The notes below the pieces were generated by a model. The model was not told the origin of the DNA and made no database searches. It saw only the letters and a list, made by a program, of their open reading frames with translations. 64,000 bases of DNA from Flavobacteriia bacterium (GTDB lineage Bacteria > Bacteroidota > Bacteroidia > Flavobacteriales_D > Crocinitomicaceae). The position numbers and the translations under genes were made by a program. Each line of letters starts with the position of its first letter. Within the stretch, counting starts at the first letter, position 1. The stretch is taken from assembly GCA_947463445.1 (NCBI GenBank), contig CANHRS010000003.1, positions 1-64,000 on the forward strand, read 5' to 3'. This document shows, piece by piece, positions 3,464 through 35,934 of the stretch.

Positions 3464-5219
3464 ACTATCAACATCGATCCTTGCTTTACTATTAACAGTT
3501 AGCAGTTTCGTTTATAGTCAAAAACCAAACATTCAACTTACTGTAAATGTAAAACCAATTGAAATAGGTCAAATGGTTGCATTTACGGTGAAGTCCAATG
3601 TAAATGGAAATATTTCGATTAATCTACCCACAACATTTACGGAGGCTGGTGTCATGAATGGCATGGAACAAACCATGGACGGCAATGGAAATATGTTGAT
3701 TTCTATTTCGTATACGCAACAAGGAGTTTTCACAAAACCAGGAAAATATACAATTACTGCAACCATTAAAGACAAAAATAAAACCTATAAATCGAACGAG
3801 CTATCCATAGTAGTTCGTAAAAAAGGAGAAGCCAAATCCAAGAAAAATTATGAGCAATCCGAAGATGATATTTCGAATTCGAATCTAAAAGAAGCGGTTT
3901 TTGGAATTATTGAAAAATCGAAACGTAAGTTGTACGAGGGAGAGCCCTTACTTTTAGAAGCTAAAATATTCTCAAAAATAAATGTTACAAACATCGTTCA
4001 ATACCAACCATTTACAATTAAAGGTACTGTAGAAACCTTTGATGTCGAGAAAACAGATAATGTTTCGATTAACCGAGAGAATTATAAAGGAAATGCCTTT
4101 TTGACATTTTCCTATGGCAAACAATTAGTATTTCCTGCTACAGCTGGTAAATACATTATTAAACCGTTTTCGATGGTCTTGCGCTATAATAATGGTGGAT
4201 TTTTTGATCGGGATTTACAGTTTGAATCAAACGCTACCTATGTAGATGTACTTCCTTTACCAAAAGGAGCTCCGAAAGATTTTAATGGTGGTGTAGGTAA
4301 ATTTAGCATGTCTACAAACATTTCTAAGAAAACAGCGAAAGTAGGCGACATTTTAACGTTTACTATCAAAGTAACAGGAAAAGGAAACATGCATGCTATT
4401 TCTAAACCGAAAATTAATTTACCCGCAAACTTAACCCTATATGGAGATCCAGAAATTAAAGATGACATAGATTATACAGATGAAGGTGCTGAAGGTGAGA
4501 AAACGTATAAATTCTTTGTCAAAGTGGTGAGTGGTGGAAAGGTGGAAATGAATCCTTTTTCCTTAAGTTACTTTGATCCAAGTTTAAAAAAATATATTAC
4601 GCTAAAAGAAAAAGCTTTTGCTTTGGATCTAGAAGGAGAAATTGTAGCTTCAAAAGTAGAAGTTACGGATTCTGTTAGTGTTCAAGGAGACGAAGAAGTT
4701 TTAGCTATTCCAGTTTCAGAAGAAAAACGAGCTGCAAAAGAATCGGTGCCACATTCTACTATTTGGATAGCACTCTTAGGAGTTTTGGTTGTTGTTTTGG
4801 GTGCGGTAATTTTCTTTTTATTGCGTAAACGTAAAAATGAAGTTCCAATTAGTACTAATGTTGTTTCTGAAGAACCATCACCGTCGCGTGTAACCGAAGT
4901 CATTCCAGATTCAAATTTTATACTTGCAGAAGCTCAACAACTAGCAAATGAAGGAAATTACAAAGCTGCTTATGGTGTAATTTCAAAATCTATCACAAAG
5001 AAAATGTACCAGAAATTAGGGGATACTTCAGAAATCATGGCTAAGGATGAATTAACCGAACGAATGAAATTAGATGGTATTTCTGCATCCATCATCGAAG
5101 ATTATTTTTGGGTAATTCGTTCCTGTCAAGAGGCTGAATATGCAATTTGGGATACCCATGAAAACTGGGAGGAGGTAGTAGAGAAAACAAAAGGGATATT
5201 TCGTTATTTCAATTTATAA
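3441..5219 (+). CDS. batD: BatD family protein (oxygen tolerance), signal peptide plus C-terminal TM
   Basis: Signal peptide, beta-rich region, TM IWIALLGVLVVVLGAVIFFLLRKRK, position after batC. Confidence 0.8.
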   Translation: MKMVKIGKLSTSILALLLTVSSFVYSQKPNIQLTVNVKPIEIGQMVAFTVKSNVNGNISINLPTTFTEAGVMNGMEQTMDGNGNMLISISYTQQGVFTKPGKYTITATIKDKNKTYKSNELSIVVRKKGEAKSKKNYEQSEDDISNSNLKEAVFGIIEKSKRKLYEGEPLLLEAKIFSKINVTNIVQYQPFTIKGTVETFDVEKTDNVSINRENYKGNAFLTFSYGKQLVFPATAGKYIIKPFSMVLRYNNGGFFDRDLQFESNATYVDVLPLPKGAPKDFNGGVGKFSMSTNISKKTAKVGDILTFTIKVTGKGNMHAISKPKINLPANLTLYGDPEIKDDIDYTDEGAEGEKTYKFFVKVVSGGKVEMNPFSLSYFDPSLKKYITLKEKAFALDLEGEIVASKVEVTDSVSVQGDEEVLAIPVSEEKRAAKESVPHSTIWIALLGVLVVVLGAVIFFLLRKRKNEVPISTNVVSEEPSPSRVTEVIPDSNFILAEAQQLANEGNYKAAYGVISKSITKKMYQKLGDTSEIMAKDELTERMKLDGISASIIEDYFWVIRSCQEAEYAIWDTHENWEEVVEKTKGIFRYFNL

Positions 5220-7948: not shown

Positions 7949-8379
7949 TATTCAAATATTATAAATTCGGTGGAAGGAAAATCAGTAGGATCAAAAGAAT
8001 ACGCTCCATGGATTGTCGGAATAGATTTTAATTTGTTTATTAAATCTGGAATTTTATAAAAATTATTATGTACCAAGAAGAAAAAATAATCGATTTGTTT
8101 ATTCTCAGGAATTAAATATTTTGCTTCAAATTTATTTTTGATAAAAAACATTTCTAAATAATTCTCTTCGTCTGAAAACTGATAGAAAGGATGTTCCGAT
8201 TTCTTTTCTCCTTTATTATTTACAATGATAAAATCTTCGATACCTTTTTCTAAACGTATGTTTAACAATTCGTTCATAGCCCACACAATGCGATAATCAT
8301 TATTCGGCGAAGAAATGCCAATCATATCGTAATCATAATCGACTTCAAATTCTAAAGTATATTTCTTTTTCTTTGTCAT
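7948..8379 (-). CDS. IPExxxVDY family protein
   Basis: Contains LIPENKQIDYFFF; located directly upstream of pyk. Confidence 0.7.
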   Translation of the reverse strand: MTKKKKYTLEFEVDYDYDMIGISSPNNDYRIVWAMNELLNIRLEKGIEDFIIVNNKGEKKSEHPFYQFSDEENYLEMFFIKNKFEAKYLIPENKQIDYFFFLVHNNFYKIPDLINKLKSIPTIHGAYSFDPTDFPSTEFIIFE

Positions 8380-8557
8380 TCTAGCAAACGAATGTACAAT
8401 TTTTAATCGAGAAACACTATTAGTAATTTGTTAACTTCTATTCCAAATTATTAGCTTTTATTCAGTTTCTACCACTTTTTTTTAGCAAGGAAAATAGTTT
8501 TTAAATCTAAGATTAAAAAAACATGTAATTTAAATACCATGGTAGATAATATTGTTG

Positions 8558-8565
8558 TACATTTG
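8558..8565 (+). promoter_or_regulatory. Bacteroidota -7 box upstream of the yceI-like gene
   Basis: TACATTTG, 29 nt before the ATG. Confidence 0.55.
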
Positions 8566-8593
8566 AAATATCAACGTAAAAAACGAAAATAAT

Positions 8594-9136
8594 ATGGCAA
8601 CATTAATTAAAACAACTTGGGCAATAGATCCAACACACTCGGAAGTAGAATTCAAAATCAAACACTTGGTAATTTCTACTGTAAAAGGAATTTTTAAAGA
8701 ATTTACAGGTTCTGTAGATGTAGATGGCGACGATTTCACAACTGCTGAATTTCAGTTTGAAGCAAATGTAGATTCTATCTTTACTAACCAAGCAGATAGA
8801 GATGGGCACTTAAAGTCAGCGGATTTCTTTGATGTTGCTAACTACCCGAAAATTTATTTCAAATCAACAGAAGTAACTAAAAAATCAGACAATACATATA
8901 CAATCGCTGGAGATTTAACAGTAAGAGATATCACTAGAACTGTTCATTTAACAGCTGATTTTGGCGGTGTTGCAACTGATCCTTACGGAAATGTTAAAGC
9001 TGGTTTCGAAATTACAGGTGCGATCAACCGTAAAGATTTTGGTTTAACTTTCCACGCAGTTACGGAAGCAGGAAATATTGTTCTTGGGGAAGACATCAAA
9101 TTAAACATCAACGTACAATTTGCAAAACAAGCTTAA
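8594..9136 (+). CDS. YceI family protein
   Basis: WAIDPTHSEVEFKIKHLVISTVKG, typical YceI lipocalin-like fold sequence. Confidence 0.92.
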   Translation: MATLIKTTWAIDPTHSEVEFKIKHLVISTVKGIFKEFTGSVDVDGDDFTTAEFQFEANVDSIFTNQADRDGHLKSADFFDVANYPKIYFKSTEVTKKSDNTYTIAGDLTVRDITRTVHLTADFGGVATDPYGNVKAGFEITGAINRKDFGLTFHAVTEAGNIVLGEDIKLNINVQFAKQA

Positions 9137-9163
9137 ATAAAGGTTTTCACTTAATGAATTCTG

Positions 9164-9193
9164 AAAAGGTTGTCAAAAATGACAACCTTTTTT
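9164..9193 (+). terminator. Rho-independent terminator after the yceI-like gene
   Basis: AAAAGGTTGTC AAAAAT GACAACCTTTTTTT. Confidence 0.85.
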
Positions 9194-9211
9194 TATATTC
9201 ACAAAAAATAT

Positions 9212-9239
9212 AATGTATAACTCATAGTTCATAATTCAA
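9212..9239 (+). repeat. Heptameric short tandem array (7-nt period)
   Basis: AATGTAT|AACTCAT|AGTTCAT|AATTCAA directly before the GTG start at 9243. Confidence 0.6.
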
Positions 9240-9242
9240 AAA

Positions 9243-10271
9243 GTGCACCTAATCTCCAAAAAGAAACTAATCTACCCTATTTCGGACTTACTGCGAAAGT
9301 ACCTGCGTCAATATGGTCGAGATGTGAAAACATCGCTTAAATATTCCGAATTAATGGAATATGAAAATTTCATCAATGTATATGATCGGGATGGAAATAA
9401 TACGTATTGGATTACCGTGATCTATAACCACGCAGTAGCTGACGAAATCAATGAAAAATTAAAACATGTTTATGCAATCCTAAAAGCTGCTGGAGATGTT
9501 TCCGTAATCAATCACTTATATATAGACCGGATTGACTTCTGTTTATTCGCCAACACTGGACCATTTCGTGTGCGTGTTGTGAATCGACTAAACGACAACT
9601 TCGATTATTTCTATGTCAAAAAAGCAGATGCTTCACGTATCTATGGTCTTGAACTAGAACACTTACTTTCCCCTAATCATATCAGTTATTTCGTAAACGA
9701 TGAAACATTGATTGAGGAACATATTATCGGAATTCCAGCAGACCAATTCTTAACCAAAAACAATACTGTTCACCAAAATTTCGAAGAAACACGTTTAGCA
9801 AAAGAATTTGTAAAATTCAACGAACGTTGTTTTGTACGATTATTAGGAGATATGCATTCGAGTAATTTCGTGATTGACGTTACTCCAGACTTTGAATCCA
9901 CACACTACCGCATGCGTTCCATCGATTTTGACCAACAATCCTTCGAAAAACGAAAAGCGGTTTATCTACCACAATTTTTCAAGCAAAACCTTCCGTTTGT
10001 CGATTTAGTAAGTAAGCACCTTACTCCACAATCGATCCAACAATACCAACGAGAAGAACGTTCCTTAATATTTAACCGTATTCGTAATTCGCGGTACCAA
10101 ATTCGGGATATCGTACACGTAATGACACGTGATACAATTGCTCCTCAAGAAAATATCGAGCAATTAAAAGAAGAATTAGCAAAACATTATAACAATACAG
10201 AGTTTTTACGCTGTAAAACGATGGGACATATTCTACGAATTAGTTTGAAAATTCTGATAAAAGGGAAATAA
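9243..10271 (+). CDS. Conserved hypothetical protein with a kinase-like (DUF2252-like) catalytic-loop motif
   Basis: RLLGDMHSSNFVID ... MRSIDFDQQSFEKR; GTG start. Confidence 0.7.
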   Translation: MHLISKKKLIYPISDLLRKYLRQYGRDVKTSLKYSELMEYENFINVYDRDGNNTYWITVIYNHAVADEINEKLKHVYAILKAAGDVSVINHLYIDRIDFCLFANTGPFRVRVVNRLNDNFDYFYVKKADASRIYGLELEHLLSPNHISYFVNDETLIEEHIIGIPADQFLTKNNTVHQNFEETRLAKEFVKFNERCFVRLLGDMHSSNFVIDVTPDFESTHYRMRSIDFDQQSFEKRKAVYLPQFFKQNLPFVDLVSKHLTPQSIQQYQREERSLIFNRIRNSRYQIRDIVHVMTRDTIAPQENIEQLKEELAKHYNNTEFLRCKTMGHILRISLKILIKGK

Positions 10272-30309: not shown

Positions 30310-30498
30310 ACTTGATATTTTATACTGCGAAAATACGACTTTATTTTTCTTTTCATATTGATAAAAAGCATAATCTAATCCGTATAATTAAAAAGATAAA
30401 TTTTCAGCATGTTTAATTCCGTGTATCTTGTCACTCATTTTTAGTGATTTTTGATTGACAAAAACCGATAAAATCATCCTTACTAATAATATAGAATA

Positions 30499-30558: not shown

Positions 30559-32829
30559 CTACTCTAACACGATCTGTTTCGTTTGAATACTTTCGTTGTT
30601 TGCATCCACAATATGTACTAGATACATTCCTTTTACTCCGAGGGCTTTCATTGAAACTTCCATGCTTGAAGTGTTTACCTTTTGGTTATATACCTCTTTT
30701 CCTTGCACATCTACAATACGTAGTGTTTTTCCATGTGCATTGGTGATAGTAACCACATCTTTGGTAGGATTTGGATACACAATTACTGCCTCTTGATCGA
30801 TCGTAGTAAGACCTGCAGCTTTCCCGTAACTTAACGATTTCTCTTGCGCATTTGCTACGATATCTAATGTTCCTTGTAGGTTTTCATTCGTTAAAATTGG
30901 AATCACTAAAAACGGTTCGTTTTCTACTAAAGGTGTTGTAGCTGCCAAACCAACCTTGTACGTTGTTGAAGTGATGTTGCTCGCTACTAACGCACTTTTA
31001 TCTTTCACCTCTGGTTGACCAAATACATTGAAATTATCCTTCATATACACATTAAATGCATACAAGGATCCAGTAGCTCTAAACACCAATTGGTTTCCTT
31101 CTTGCGCTACCGTAACATTTGCTGTTGGTGTTTCTCCACCACGTTTTTTTGCATCTGCAGGGAAGGCAGCAATTTGACCAATTGACTTTTGTAAAATCAA
31201 CGAAGCGTCGTTTGCTGTAACGTTCCCTACCGTATCTACGTTTGCCACTGCGATTCTCCAATTTGACCAAGGCAAGGGATCCATGGTAGGTAGTGGATTT
31301 AAACCTACAGAATATTGTAATGCTAAAGCAGCGTCGTATGCTCTCACAAATGAGTTCGTGTCAACATCTCCAAATAACGTTGGTAGTACGCTAAAGCTTG
31401 CGTTTTGTGTTGGGGTAGCAACAATTGCATTACCTCCTAAGTCTTTCCCGGTTACTAAAGTTACGTTTACAGCGCCATTACCTTTTTCTACTACCCACCA
31501 AAAGGTATAGGTGGTATCATTTACTTTTGTAAGGTTTGTGTTAGACAAGGTGTTTTGTCCTGTTAAATTCAATTGCGGAACAGGTGAAACAGTCATTTTC
31601 TCATTGAAATTCACAGTAATCAATAAAGAATCTCCTTTACGCACAGGATTTTGCGTATACGTGATTTTCGCAGTTGGCGGTGTAACATCCAAGGTAGTTA
31701 CGGTATCGGATTTTAAACTGGTAATGGTAGTATTGTTATACATAAAATTAGCTAAGCCAAAAACCCCTTGTCCTGTGGTATTATTCGCTTTGAACTTCAA
31801 CTTTACCAAACTACCAGCACCACTCAATGCTGTTTGAGACATATACCCTACTTGTAGTAAACCATTCTTACTTTTATTGATACCTACGGTGCCAACAGGA
31901 TTTAACGTACCAACTAAATTGCTCCCTACATAAGTGAAACGCGTTGTATCAAAGGAAAAATCTGTTTGGTAAGCGATAACATTGTCTGCTGTGTTTAATG
32001 CTTCTGTGCTAATAGATAATTCTACTTCTTGGTTTTGATTTACCGTTGCTGGTGCATCTACGAAAACCTTGGTGGATGCTAACGCAGATTGAGTAGATCC
32101 AGTATATAGGGCGGTGATTTCTTGTTCTGAAAGTGCGCGGTTGTAGATGGCGATGTCGTCGAGTTGGCCGTTAAAAAATGCATTTCTGATATTATTATAA
32201 TCATATTTACTTCCAAAAAGTAAAGGCCTTGAATTTGAAAATTCACCGCAAACATTTGTTGTTTTACTTTGTAATTTTCCATCAACATATATCTTTAAAA
32301 CACCATTTTCCTTTATGCTAATAACATTTGACCATACATTTAATTTTGTATCATTATCTGATTCTAAAAAATCACCGCATGTGTTTCCTCCACCTAACTG
32401 ACTCCAAACTAATTGCGGTTTATTATTAGGAATTGAGCCTAATGTAGATCGATAACCTAATGTATTACTATTGTAATCCGATTTACAAACCATTACATAT
32501 TCATTAGTTGAATTTGGTTTAATCATTATTTTGTACCAAACCGAGATGGTAAAATTATTTAAATTAAATATGTTATTATTACCGCAGTCTATATCATTTT
32601 GTTTTCCATCAAAACTATACGCACTATTTGCCTTCCCATTTCTATCCGCTGTCAACGTTGCGCCATTCACTGTTCCATTATTTCCATTTCCACTTTCATC
32701 ATTCGCATTTCCGTTAAACGGCCACCAACCAACAAGACCATTTGTTGGAACATAAGAAGGTACATTTTGTGCCATTACATTCGATGCGAATACAAGGACA
32801 ACTATTAATTTAACGTAGTTTTTAAGCAT
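30559..32829 (-). CDS. Secreted multidomain protein: LamG-like, cohesin-like, Ig-like and dockerin-like regions plus T9SS type A sorting domain
   Basis: LVGWWPFNGNANDESGNGNNG (LamG); VNQNQEVELSISTEALNTADNVIAYQTDFSFDT (cohesin-like); GDVDTNSFVRAYDAALALQYSVG...ANVDTVGNVTANDASLILQKSIG (dockerin-like); VYPNPTKDVVTI... C-terminus (T9SS). Confidence 0.82.
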   Translation of the reverse strand: MLKNYVKLIVVLVFASNVMAQNVPSYVPTNGLVGWWPFNGNANDESGNGNNGTVNGATLTADRNGKANSAYSFDGKQNDIDCGNNNIFNLNNFTISVWYKIMIKPNSTNEYVMVCKSDYNSNTLGYRSTLGSIPNNKPQLVWSQLGGGNTCGDFLESDNDTKLNVWSNVISIKENGVLKIYVDGKLQSKTTNVCGEFSNSRPLLFGSKYDYNNIRNAFFNGQLDDIAIYNRALSEQEITALYTGSTQSALASTKVFVDAPATVNQNQEVELSISTEALNTADNVIAYQTDFSFDTTRFTYVGSNLVGTLNPVGTVGINKSKNGLLQVGYMSQTALSGAGSLVKLKFKANNTTGQGVFGLANFMYNNTTITSLKSDTVTTLDVTPPTAKITYTQNPVRKGDSLLITVNFNEKMTVSPVPQLNLTGQNTLSNTNLTKVNDTTYTFWWVVEKGNGAVNVTLVTGKDLGGNAIVATPTQNASFSVLPTLFGDVDTNSFVRAYDAALALQYSVGLNPLPTMDPLPWSNWRIAVANVDTVGNVTANDASLILQKSIGQIAAFPADAKKRGGETPTANVTVAQEGNQLVFRATGSLYAFNVYMKDNFNVFGQPEVKDKSALVASNITSTTYKVGLAATTPLVENEPFLVIPILTNENLQGTLDIVANAQEKSLSYGKAAGLTTIDQEAVIVYPNPTKDVVTITNAHGKTLRIVDVQGKEVYNQKVNTSSMEVSMKALGVKGMYLVHIVDANNESIQTKQIVLE

Positions 32830-32993: not shown

Positions 32994-33027
32994 TATGCAA
33001 TTTTTTAACACAAAGGGAAGCTAATTG
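32994..33027. repeat. Diverged copy of the 33-bp array unit overlapping the 3' end of the DUF4143 gene
   Basis: TATGCAATTTTTTAACACAAAGGGAAGCTAATTG compared with array TATGCAATTTTTCGATTTTTTATACACAAAGCGAACCCAATT. Confidence 0.65.
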
Positions 33028-34373
33028 TTCCCTTTTTCGTTGACTAACATCTCCAAATACGTGGGCAATTGTGATGCTAAATAATATGGCAGATTCATTA
33101 AGATATATTCTTTTTTACCAGGAGTAATTGCTTGTTCAATACTAAAATTTCCTGCATATAATCGAACAGCAAAAGGATGATTAGAGCGATCAATAAACTG
33201 ATGAAGCGATCTCAAAGTACCTGTCGGACCACTTTTAATTTCAATTGGAATAACATATTTTCCATGCTGATAGATTAAATCAACTTCAGAATTACTATCT
33301 TTTTCTTCCCTAACCCAAAAATTTGGCTTGTAAATTTGATCATCGTGAATAGCTATTATTTCTTGATAAACAATATGTTGAATAATTAATCCTTTGTGAA
33401 AATTACTGAAATTATTTACTAAAAGCATTTCGCCTTGAAGAGATAAGATTTGATTCAAAAGTCCTGTGTCTAAAAACTGTAGTCGAGGTCGCTTTTTTAA
33501 ATCTGCTTGAATGGGAGGCTGTAAGCTCGTTGAGGGATAGATTAATTGTATGATTTTTGCTAAATCAATCGTTCTTAAAGCTTCGCCAACTTCTCGAGAG
33601 CGATAGTTTGAATTTCCAAAGCCTTCAAATTTGATTCTATCTGACTCAAATGGGGCAGAATCGATAACATGGTATATTACTTTTCTATCCAATTCTTTCG
33701 AAGTATATTTCACAACATCGTCTTTATATGCTTGCCAAAGATTTTTATAAGTTTTTTTTAATTGAGAGATGTTTTTGGTTTCCACATAATTCTTAACAAT
33801 TTCTGGCATTCCTCCAATCAATAAATATTCATGAAACAAGTTTAGTAGTGTGGAATGTGCAAACGCAGGTATAGGTTTAGTATTTACTATTTCCAACGCA
33901 GCTAAATTATCTGTTGCACCTAAAAATTCTATAAAATTTAAGGGGTGTAAATAAAGATAGTCTACTCTGCCTACTGGAAAATTAGGTACTTTTTTTAATG
34001 CAAACTCCAACAATGATCCTGCGGCTATCACGTAAATGTCCGGTCTTTCTTCATAAAAATAACGAAGAAGTTGAATTGCTTTTGGAGACTCTTGAATTTC
34101 ATCAATAAAAAATAAAGTCGTTTTTTTATTCTCAATTTTACGTTTTAATAGAAATGCGCTATTAATAATTGTATGTACATCATCTACCACAAATAAATTT
34201 AGATCACTTTCTTTTTCTAAGTTTAATTCGATATAATTATCAAATTCCTTTGCAAATTCTCGGACAATAGTTGTTTTACCAACCTGCCTAGCACCACGTA
34301 AAAGTAAAGGTTTGCGAAACTTATCGTTTTTCCACGCAATAAGTTTACTATAGGAATTACGCTTAATTGACAT
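33021..34373 (-). CDS. AAA ATPase (AAA_14) with C-terminal DUF4143 and PD-(D/E)XK-like motif
   Basis: Walker A LLLRGARQVGKTT, Walker B TLFFIDEIQESP, C-terminal NSEVDLIYQHGKYVIPIEIKSG. Confidence 0.92.
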   Translation of the reverse strand: MSIKRNSYSKLIAWKNDKFRKPLLLRGARQVGKTTIVREFAKEFDNYIELNLEKESDLNLFVVDDVHTIINSAFLLKRKIENKKTTLFFIDEIQESPKAIQLLRYFYEERPDIYVIAAGSLLEFALKKVPNFPVGRVDYLYLHPLNFIEFLGATDNLAALEIVNTKPIPAFAHSTLLNLFHEYLLIGGMPEIVKNYVETKNISQLKKTYKNLWQAYKDDVVKYTSKELDRKVIYHVIDSAPFESDRIKFEGFGNSNYRSREVGEALRTIDLAKIIQLIYPSTSLQPPIQADLKKRPRLQFLDTGLLNQILSLQGEMLLVNNFSNFHKGLIIQHIVYQEIIAIHDDQIYKPNFWVREEKDSNSEVDLIYQHGKYVIPIEIKSGPTGTLRSLHQFIDRSNHPFAVRLYAGNFSIEQAITPGKKEYILMNLPYYLASQLPTYLEMLVNEKGNN

Positions 34374-34398: not shown

Positions 34399-34406
34399 CA
34401 AATATA
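34399..34406 (-). promoter_or_regulatory. Possible Bacteroidota -7 box of the AAA_14/DUF4143 gene
   Basis: Minus-strand TATATTTG between the repeat array and the start codon. Confidence 0.5.
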
Positions 34407-34416
34407 CTATTTTTAA

Positions 34417-34534
34417 CACAAAGCGAACCCAATTTTAGTGTTTTTTTGTCACAAAGAGTATGCAATTTTTCGATTTTTTATACACAAAGCGAACCCAATT
34501 TTAGTTTTTTTTTGTCATAAAGCGAACCCAATAT
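34417..34534. repeat. Tandem array of four 33-bp units (CAYAAAG-N6-CAATTTT plus T-tract)
   Basis: Unit starts at 34417, 34450, 34483 and 34516, spaced exactly 33 nt; N6 words CGAACC, AGTATG, CGAACC, CGAACC; last unit degenerates. Confidence 0.95.
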
Positions 34535-34569: not shown

Positions 34570-35934
34570 TTAAGAAAAAAGTGCTTTTAACACCTCATCA
34601 ATTCGACTACACATAATTAGTTCTATTGTGTGATTTTTTTGCGTGATCCCTTTGTTAAATGAAGAAATGATGATTTTTTCAAATCCTAACTTTTCTGCTT
34701 CCGAAATACGTTGTTCGATTCTATTCACTGGACGAATTTCTCCAGATAAACCTACCTCTGCGGATAAACAAATATTTTTTGGCACTGGTAAATCCGCATT
34801 AGATGACAATACCGATGCAACTACCGCTAAATCAATCGCTGGATCATCTACACGTATACCTCCAGCAATGTTTAAAAAAACATCTTTAGCTCCAAGTTTA
34901 AACCCACAACGTTTTTCCATAACAGCTAACAACATATTTAATCTACGCAAATCAAACCCTGTCGAAGAGCGTTGTGGAGTTCCATATGCTGCAGTACTAA
35001 CCAATGCTTGCACTTCTATCAACATTGGTCGAAGTCCCTCTAAAGTGGATGCAATAGAAATTCCACTCAAGGTAGCATCCGTGTTAGTAATCAAAATTTC
35101 GGACGGATTTTCAACCTGACGAAGTCCAGAACCTAACATTTCATAAATACCTAATTCATTCGTGCTTCCAAATCTATTTTTAATGGTACGTAACAAACGA
35201 TATACATGATTACGATCGCCTTCAAACTGCAATACCACGTCTACCATGTGTTCCAAAACTTTTGGTCCAGCTAAAGCGCCTTCTTTCGTGATGTGTCCAA
35301 TTAAAAATACCGGAACTTCCGTTTGTTTGGCATAGCGTAACAATTGGGCAGTACATTCACGCACTTGGGAAATACTTCCTGGAGAACTCTCTATATGTGA
35401 ACTATATAACGTTTGAATAGAGTCAATAACCAATAATTGCGGTTTTATTTCCTCCGTTTGTAAAAAGATATTTTGAAGATTTGTTTCTGTTAGAATAAAA
35501 CATTCGTTGTTATCTAATCCGATACGTTCTGCACGCATTTTTATTTGTTGCTCGCTTTCTTCCCCTGAAACATACAGAATACGCAAGTTTTTTTCAGTCA
35601 CCGCTAGCTGAAGCATCAAGGTAGATTTACCAATTCCTGGTTCTCCGCCAAAAAGAATTAAAGATCCTGGCACCAAACCTTCACCTAAAACTCGATTTAA
35701 CTCTTTGTCATGGAGTATAATACGTGATTCTGCACGATGTACAATATCTTGAACCGCTTGTGGTTTGGCAGTTTTACCATTGCTAGTTGAAAATGCAACT
35801 ACCGATGAATCATTGTTGCCAATAATTTCTTCCACAAAGGTGTTCCATTCCGAGCAAGAAGGACATTTACCTAACCATTTGGGAGTTTGGTGTCCACAAT
35901 TTTGACAAAAAAATGCTGTTTTTATTTTAGCCAT
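34570..35934 (-). CDS. radA: DNA repair protein RadA
   Basis: FFCQNCGHQTPKWLGKCPSCSEWNTF zinc finger, GGEPGIGKSTL, KNRFGSTNELGIYEM; MAKIKTAFFCQNC start at 35934 preferred over 35958. Confidence 0.96.
   Translation of the reverse strand: MAKIKTAFFCQNCGHQTPKWLGKCPSCSEWNTFVEEIIGNNDSSVVAFSTSNGKTAKPQAVQDIVHRAESRIILHDKELNRVLGEGLVPGSLILFGGEPGIGKSTLMLQLAVTEKNLRILYVSGEESEQQIKMRAERIGLDNNECFILTETNLQNIFLQTEEIKPQLLVIDSIQTLYSSHIESSPGSISQVRECTAQLLRYAKQTEVPVFLIGHITKEGALAGPKVLEHMVDVVLQFEGDRNHVYRLLRTIKNRFGSTNELGIYEMLGSGLRQVENPSEILITNTDATLSGISIASTLEGLRPMLIEVQALVSTAAYGTPQRSSTGFDLRRLNMLLAVMEKRCGFKLGAKDVFLNIAGGIRVDDPAIDLAVVASVLSSNADLPVPKNICLSAEVGLSGEIRPVNRIEQRISEAEKLGFEKIIISSFNKGITQKNHTIELIMCSRIDEVLKALFS

Follow-up and report, generated by a model that had tools for sequence, protein, structure and literature searches.

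The nearest described regulatory parallel to the locus presented here, by analogy at least, is a defense island repressed by RptR, a dedicated repressor that acts on three direct repeats in the island's promoter (PMC12255303). The likeness, putative on our side, is that a defense locus is repressed by way of a few direct repeats in its promoter. RptR, however, is a small protein whose single conserved site is a 6-bp palindrome (PMC12255303), whereas in our case the array is likely bound by the large ATPase-nuclease, and different proteins go with different words. Iteron-binding initiators such as DnaA and Cdc6/ORC resemble our cassette—an array of short repeats and the gene beside it—in a different way: they, too, combine an AAA+ domain with a winged helix and have helically phased sites by their own gene, and DNA-bound Cdc6/ORC is among the best fold matches of our protein. 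The cassette, in contrast, has no replication origin or replicon, and its specificity appears to reside in a nuclease-like domain. In Tn7, TnsA and TnsC bring an AAA+ ATPase and a PD-(D/E)xK nuclease to repeated end sites, and TnsC, too, is a fold match, but our cassette lacks a DDE transposase, a right end and any shown target duplication. Restriction-modification systems autoregulated by C-proteins are likewise mobile single loci with an operator and a regulator of their own; the cassette differs in having neither a separate regulator nor a methylase.

The protein concerned belongs to PDC-S01, an ATPase fused to a PD-(D/E)xK domain, and is reported as the fourth commonest 'defense' system across prokaryotes, with 29,494 bacterial and 9,986 archaeal copies (PMC12988326). 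Experimental validation is still pending for most such defense candidates (PMC12988326), and PDC-S01, although very common, is uncharacterized and has no proven function. Our copy lies in a 64,000-nt stretch of DNA from a Flavobacteriia bacterium ('the window'), where a 450-aa AAA_14-DUF4143 protein is encoded on the minus strand (33021..34373). By profile it is a PDC-S01 member, a single-gene candidate among the COG1373 / AAA_14-DUF4143 ATPases. Descriptions of PDC-S01 in the literature we searched mention no upstream array, no self-recognition and no cassette borders. The array was not reported in any literature we found, but our coverage was without most subscription journals, and absence there is no proof of novelty.

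Four units of the form CA(C/T)AAAG-N6-CAAT(T/A)TT make up the array. The original prediction described them, from the letters alone, as spaced at exactly 33 nt, and so they are: a scan of the entire window finds zero-mismatch matches only at 34417, 34450, 34483 and 34516, and TRF reports an array at 34410-34532 (period 33, 3.7 copies) with a score of 146, the highest in the window; the runner-up scores 88. The inner words were also read correctly (CGAACC, AGTATG, CGAACC and CGAACC), as was the start of the array 44 nt upstream of the minus-strand ATG at 34373. On the minus strand, the unit nearest the gene has the core TTGGGTTCGCTTTGTGTTAAA (34412..34432), the second TTGCATACTCTTTGTGACAAA (34445..34465), the third TTGGGTTCGCTTTGTGTATAA (34478..34498), and the fourth and farthest TTGGGTTCGCTTTATGACAAA (34511..34531). 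The exact word of this array was found nowhere outside the arrays of two genomes, G000 and G001, among the eight genomes of the genus that were searched. The inner word of unit 2 does differ, as had been claimed, but the slot is not freely variable. Read in the sense direction, this word is CATACTC, and because it resembles the words of relatives—CATCCTC in one sister genome, CCTC or ACTC types in others—unit 2 looks, on sequence grounds, like an older unit alongside three newer GGTTCGC units. The Bacteroidota -7 promoter consensus is TAnnTTTG. Between array and gene, on the minus strand, TATATTTG (34399..34406) matches this consensus and is the likely -7 box of the gene; of 93 relatives, 65 have TAnnTTTG upstream, where shuffled sequences would give about 21.

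A lone unit-like stretch (33002..33028, plus strand; 25 nt at 88% identity, E 0.046 in a search of the own genome) lies across the 3' end of the gene and is probably chance or a remnant. No Rfam match was found for the array as an RNA element. A CRISPR array can be rejected, the 33-nt units having no unique spacers and the words recurring within the array; no cas gene was recognized among the ORFs listed for 28-42 kb. Elsewhere in the window, an intergenic CACAAAG-type repeat at 2754-2797 (also 2660-2800) contains TTCACAAAGGTCACCGAGTTTTT twice, with further CACAAAG copies nearby in the opposite orientation; both its word and its layout differ from those of the 33-bp array. Given this difference, and the restriction of the exact array word to two of the eight genomes searched, the array is not a generic genomic CACAAAG repeat.

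The window array is, instead, one example of a promoter array that precedes nearly every gene of the PDC-S01 family. We scored periodicity in the ~250 nt upstream of each start against 40 dinucleotide-preserving shuffles. Among 123 homologues of the window gene, 111 have upstream tandem repeats beyond all 40 shuffles, with periods of 33 (89 genes), 32 (18), 34 (1), 44 (2) and 37 (1); the same test is positive for only three downstream and one coding control window. Nine of 167 other genes in the same flanks also exceed their shuffles, only two with a period of 31-34, and one of these two is itself an AAA_14/DUF4143 gene while the other shares the array divergently. With those two removed, the comparison at period 31-34 is 108 of 123 homologues against none of 165 independent neighbor genes, which excludes the AT-rich noise that would have refuted the original prediction. 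Orthologues without flanking repeats, a second threat to it, are a minority only (about 10% of homologues have no detectable array), and a search for arrays that lack the gene turned up only decayed remnants, in which a partial array runs directly into the gene's final codons. Upstream of the closest homologues, whose contexts are unrelated, there are two to five units of similar form, and 161 of 180 unit-to-unit intervals are 33. At 25 loci the core of the last unit ends 3 nt before the aligned start. The multiple sites overlap the region of the gene's own promoter; many relatives have units that also cover the -7 box and start codon.

The unit sequence varies from phylum to phylum and also among the paralogues within a genome. 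More distant homologues led to five further genomes, where the test is passed by 15 of 29 DUF4143 genes, mostly with period 31-34; the sites are often palindromic, and each paralogue has its own word. Vibrio and Acinetobacter genes for proteins that are about 70% identical keep the palindrome TTTTATGCGCATAAAA despite different flanks, with three units on one Vibrio plasmid and, at the same locus, one unit on another. Prevotella-type orthologues have few, degenerate units, and 13 of 29 genes pass in that phylum-wide search. Seven of 17 Bacillota-type genes pass the lag test, with periods that include 23 (as lag 46), 32-33 and 37; several others have paired or palindromic sites by eye, the pairs bracketing the promoter. 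A 2.6-Mb Bdellovibrionaceae genome, G060, contains at least 22 DUF4143 genes, and the upstream words differ among those that were read.

What the window gene encodes is as the original prediction had it: Pfam finds AAA_14 (E 1.3e-27) and DUF4143 (E 3.6e-17) and no other domain. An AAA+ ATPase comes first, then a winged-helix-like middle, then a C-terminal PD-(D/E)xK-like domain. The PADLOC profile PDLC04788 (PDC-S01) matches over the full length (E 5.7e-180) and also matches 42 of 42 aligned members. In 42 homologues, the Walker A and B residues (G32-K33 and D91-E92) are invariant, and so are the predicted catalytic residues D365 (codon 33279..33281), E378 and K380 (E-x-K codons 33234..33242; both on the minus strand). 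No solved relative is detectable by sequence. An AF2 monomer model is confident (pLDDT 89.7), and its best PDB fold matches are SSO1545, Cdc6/ORC with DNA, clamp loaders and TnsC. In this model, residues 357-359 (E357-K358-D359; codons 33297..33305, minus strand) form a loop between strands 351-354 and 363-370, the latter of which bears the invariant D365.

It is this loop that covaries with the variable word, and we consider this the strongest of our results. When the unit consensus was compared with the protein alignment at 82 loci of the window's subfamily (effective number ~53), the top pairs joined unit positions +8, +9, +10 and +7 to residues 359, 358 and 357, with Z scores of 10.0 for +8 with 359 and 9.4 for +10 with 358. 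C at +10 accompanies K or R at 358 in 48 of 49 cases, and T accompanies N, T, A, Q, S or I in 29 of 32; at +8, Q359 goes with T or G and T359 with A, while D359 goes mostly with C and E359 mostly with A. Pairing of K/R with G:C, and of N/T/Q/A with A:T, is physically sensible. Independent evolution simulated along a tree built without the loop region reached the observed association in 0 of 2000 runs for +10 with 358 and in 0 of 500 for +8 with 359; the signals at +9 and +7 are weaker (5 of 500 each). When 113 columns of similar entropy served as controls, the highest mutual information among them was 0.52, against 0.77. Among the top 100 pairs taken by region, neither the winged helix nor the nuclease domain is enriched overall; the signal is confined to residues 357-361.

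The rule was also applied to new genes from a later, class-wide search, with the tested letters masked while the sites were being found. C is present at +10 in seven of eight K358 proteins but in only two of 18 others (Fisher p 4e-4), a table that tests the rule in the form 'C if and only if K/R' and omits one locus without an aligned loop and one with tied units. All 12 Q359 proteins have T or G at +8. The stricter prediction of exactly C or exactly T was correct in 18 of 28 cases, and the code has limits: N359 proteins carry a 'GTA' word, which could not have been foreseen from the training set. The protein thus appears to read its own array by means of a short loop beside the nuclease active site.

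Because the gene association, the private words of individual paralogues, the linked mobility described below and the out-of-sample covariation converge, we regard the array as a site for the adjacent protein. The original prediction had proposed a binding, integration or addressing site, a proposal now supported, with 'binding' better supported than 'integration'—in the absence, it must be said, of any binding data. Recognition in cis is well supported as far as sequence comparison can take it; that the sites are specific to the encoded protein follows from covariation and hold-out prediction, not from binding. Our explanation, which we hold to be probable though by no means settled, has the protein bind the array in its own promoter through the DUF4143 loop: it represses its own gene, and travels with the array as a unit. 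The array would be a set of binding sites on which the loop at 357-359, just ahead of D365, reads the variable word, and the winged helix probably reads the conserved half, CTTTRTTACAAA. Several AAA+ protomers might sit side by side on one face of the DNA, since copies of the site are placed at whole helical turns: about three turns in the window, and 23, 32-33, 37 or 44-46 bp elsewhere. Because the units overlap the promoter region, and often the -7 box and start codon, binding would most likely repress: a bound array would shut down its own gene, and the cassette would regulate itself. The predicted fold speaks for this explanation, its relatives being AAA+ winged-helix DNA-binding initiators. 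Physical binding, repression, whatever releases repression, and the real target of the nuclease are all inferred. Against it, a specificity loop in a nuclease-like domain, and intact predicted catalytic residues, are more than a simple repressor needs; an operator alone does not explain why about half of the pairs compared have a sharp border at the first unit; and some homologues lack a detectable array, with fewer than half of the Bacillota-type genes passing the lag test, though several of the others have sites by eye.

Array and gene behave, as judged from their borders, as a portable cassette that moves as a unit between unrelated sites. In the window, the insertion site is the 3' side of the upstream neighbor, radA (34570..35931, minus strand). 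The cassette is missing beside radA in four genomes of the genus (G010, G008, G004 and G009), and matches the G001 copy at 95% identity, whereas the adjoining radA reaches only 82.6%. In an all-versus-all comparison, pairs at 83-98% identity usually have only the array, the gene and ~0-135 nt downstream in common, and 56 of 100 pairs have their left border close to the first unit, between -10 and +15 nt from it. A cassette in four E. coli strains is 95% identical to an Acinetobacter plasmid copy; homology starts at the first unit and, on the right, runs on past the gene. Such a relative (8001-9425 of the E. coli E14 locus) was found in only four of 5,426 complete E. coli genomes, all near-identical chicken isolates. 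On a plasmid of Acinetobacter sp. PK01, unrelated sequence stands in place of the array and first codons, so that array and start are lost together; this copy is unannotated. Deletions recur that span the array to the end of the gene: decayed copies in G005, G008 and G012 retain the final codons of the gene together with a portion of the array. Of the matches from a joined-flank search for clean empty sites, those checked, in G008 and G012, are these decayed copies, with deletions within array and gene.

The surroundings of radA deserve a few words. A 9-bp repeat, ATCAATATG, flanks the window's 4.2-kb insertion and might be a target-site duplication, but the locus carries several rearrangements. 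A secreted laminin-G/Por_Secre_tail gene (30559-32829) lies within the same insertion and is absent from the same four genomes. Near the right edge, at ~30440-30480, is a partly palindromic sequence, TTTTTGTCAATCAAAAATCACTAAAAATGAGTGACAA (also at 3630-3745 of locus L130), with related copies near the solo array of G005; possibly this is what is left of an operator from a different family. In a sister genome, a gene whose product looks by eye like a YhcG/DUF1016-type nuclease (1648-2799 of locus L045) stands between radA and the array, which suggests an accessory hotspot beside radA. Cassettes are also present in MAGs labeled Chitinophaga pinensis (L045, L073, L091, L101); since L045 is identical to a genome that belongs to the same genus as the window, the label is probably wrong.

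These borders invite another reading, that the array is the recognized end of a single-gene mobile element and is cut by the AAA+ nuclease, with insertion elsewhere by its own or host repair activities and promoter control secondary. We think this unlikely, yet leave it open, because the left border is sharp—as between the E. coli E14 and Acinetobacter plasmid copies—and the nuclease residues are intact. That closely similar copies share little beyond the cassette, that the specificity loop lies next to a nuclease site that appears intact, and that deletions recur from array to gene end would all fit. But the pairs that support the border are not independent, left and right flanks are sometimes shared separately, and no right-end copy of the unit is found as a rule (downstream copies are rare, in only 2-3 of 73 relatives). 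Nor did we find terminal inverted repeats, an established target duplication, or a transposase or recombinase domain, Pfam matching only AAA_14 and DUF4143. The units, moreover, keep a fixed position with respect to promoter and start codon, something not required of an element end, and in other phyla the sites bracket the promoter rather than mark one end. Were the cassette nonetheless a new, minimal one-gene mobile element whose protein cuts its own left-end array, loop and word being rewritten together—a doubtful proposition at present—then many elements could coexist in one genome without cross-talk.

Less credible still, and in our judgment quite improbable, is that the array marks 'self' for a DNA-patrolling defense nuclease, which it would titrate, license or block, the function being restriction of phages or rival elements and the array a switch. 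PDC-S01 is among the commonest candidate defense genes (PMC12988326), and the E. coli E14 cassette sits inside an island of MADS, type I restriction and HipA genes. This defense status is by association only, however, with no activity reported in the literature we found; the window copy lies between radA and the secreted laminin-G protein gene, apparently not in a defense island, and no target besides the array is known. Least likely of all, and very improbable, is that the array serves some other regulator as its operator, or is a generic feature of accessory-gene promoters in AT-rich Bacteroidota: units of some relatives do include the -7 box TAnnTTTG, and dedicated regulators are known to repress defense islands through direct repeats (RptR, PMC12255303), but the feature is absent at period 31-34 from all 165 neighboring genes, its words are paralogue-specific within a genome and show covariation with residues of the protein that the gene encodes, and it recurs in Vibrio, Acinetobacter, Bdellovibrionaceae and Bacillota-type genomes.

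A self-binding, autoregulated cassette remains the explanation that we prefer. Nearly every PDC-S01 member now has a predicted cognate DNA site, together with a partial residue-to-base code, and this makes an unknown family testable at once, for binding, cleavage, regulation and swaps of specificity. Counts of the presence and absence of the PDC-S01 'defense system' may, in part, reflect the spread of a self-addressed mobile cassette, instead.
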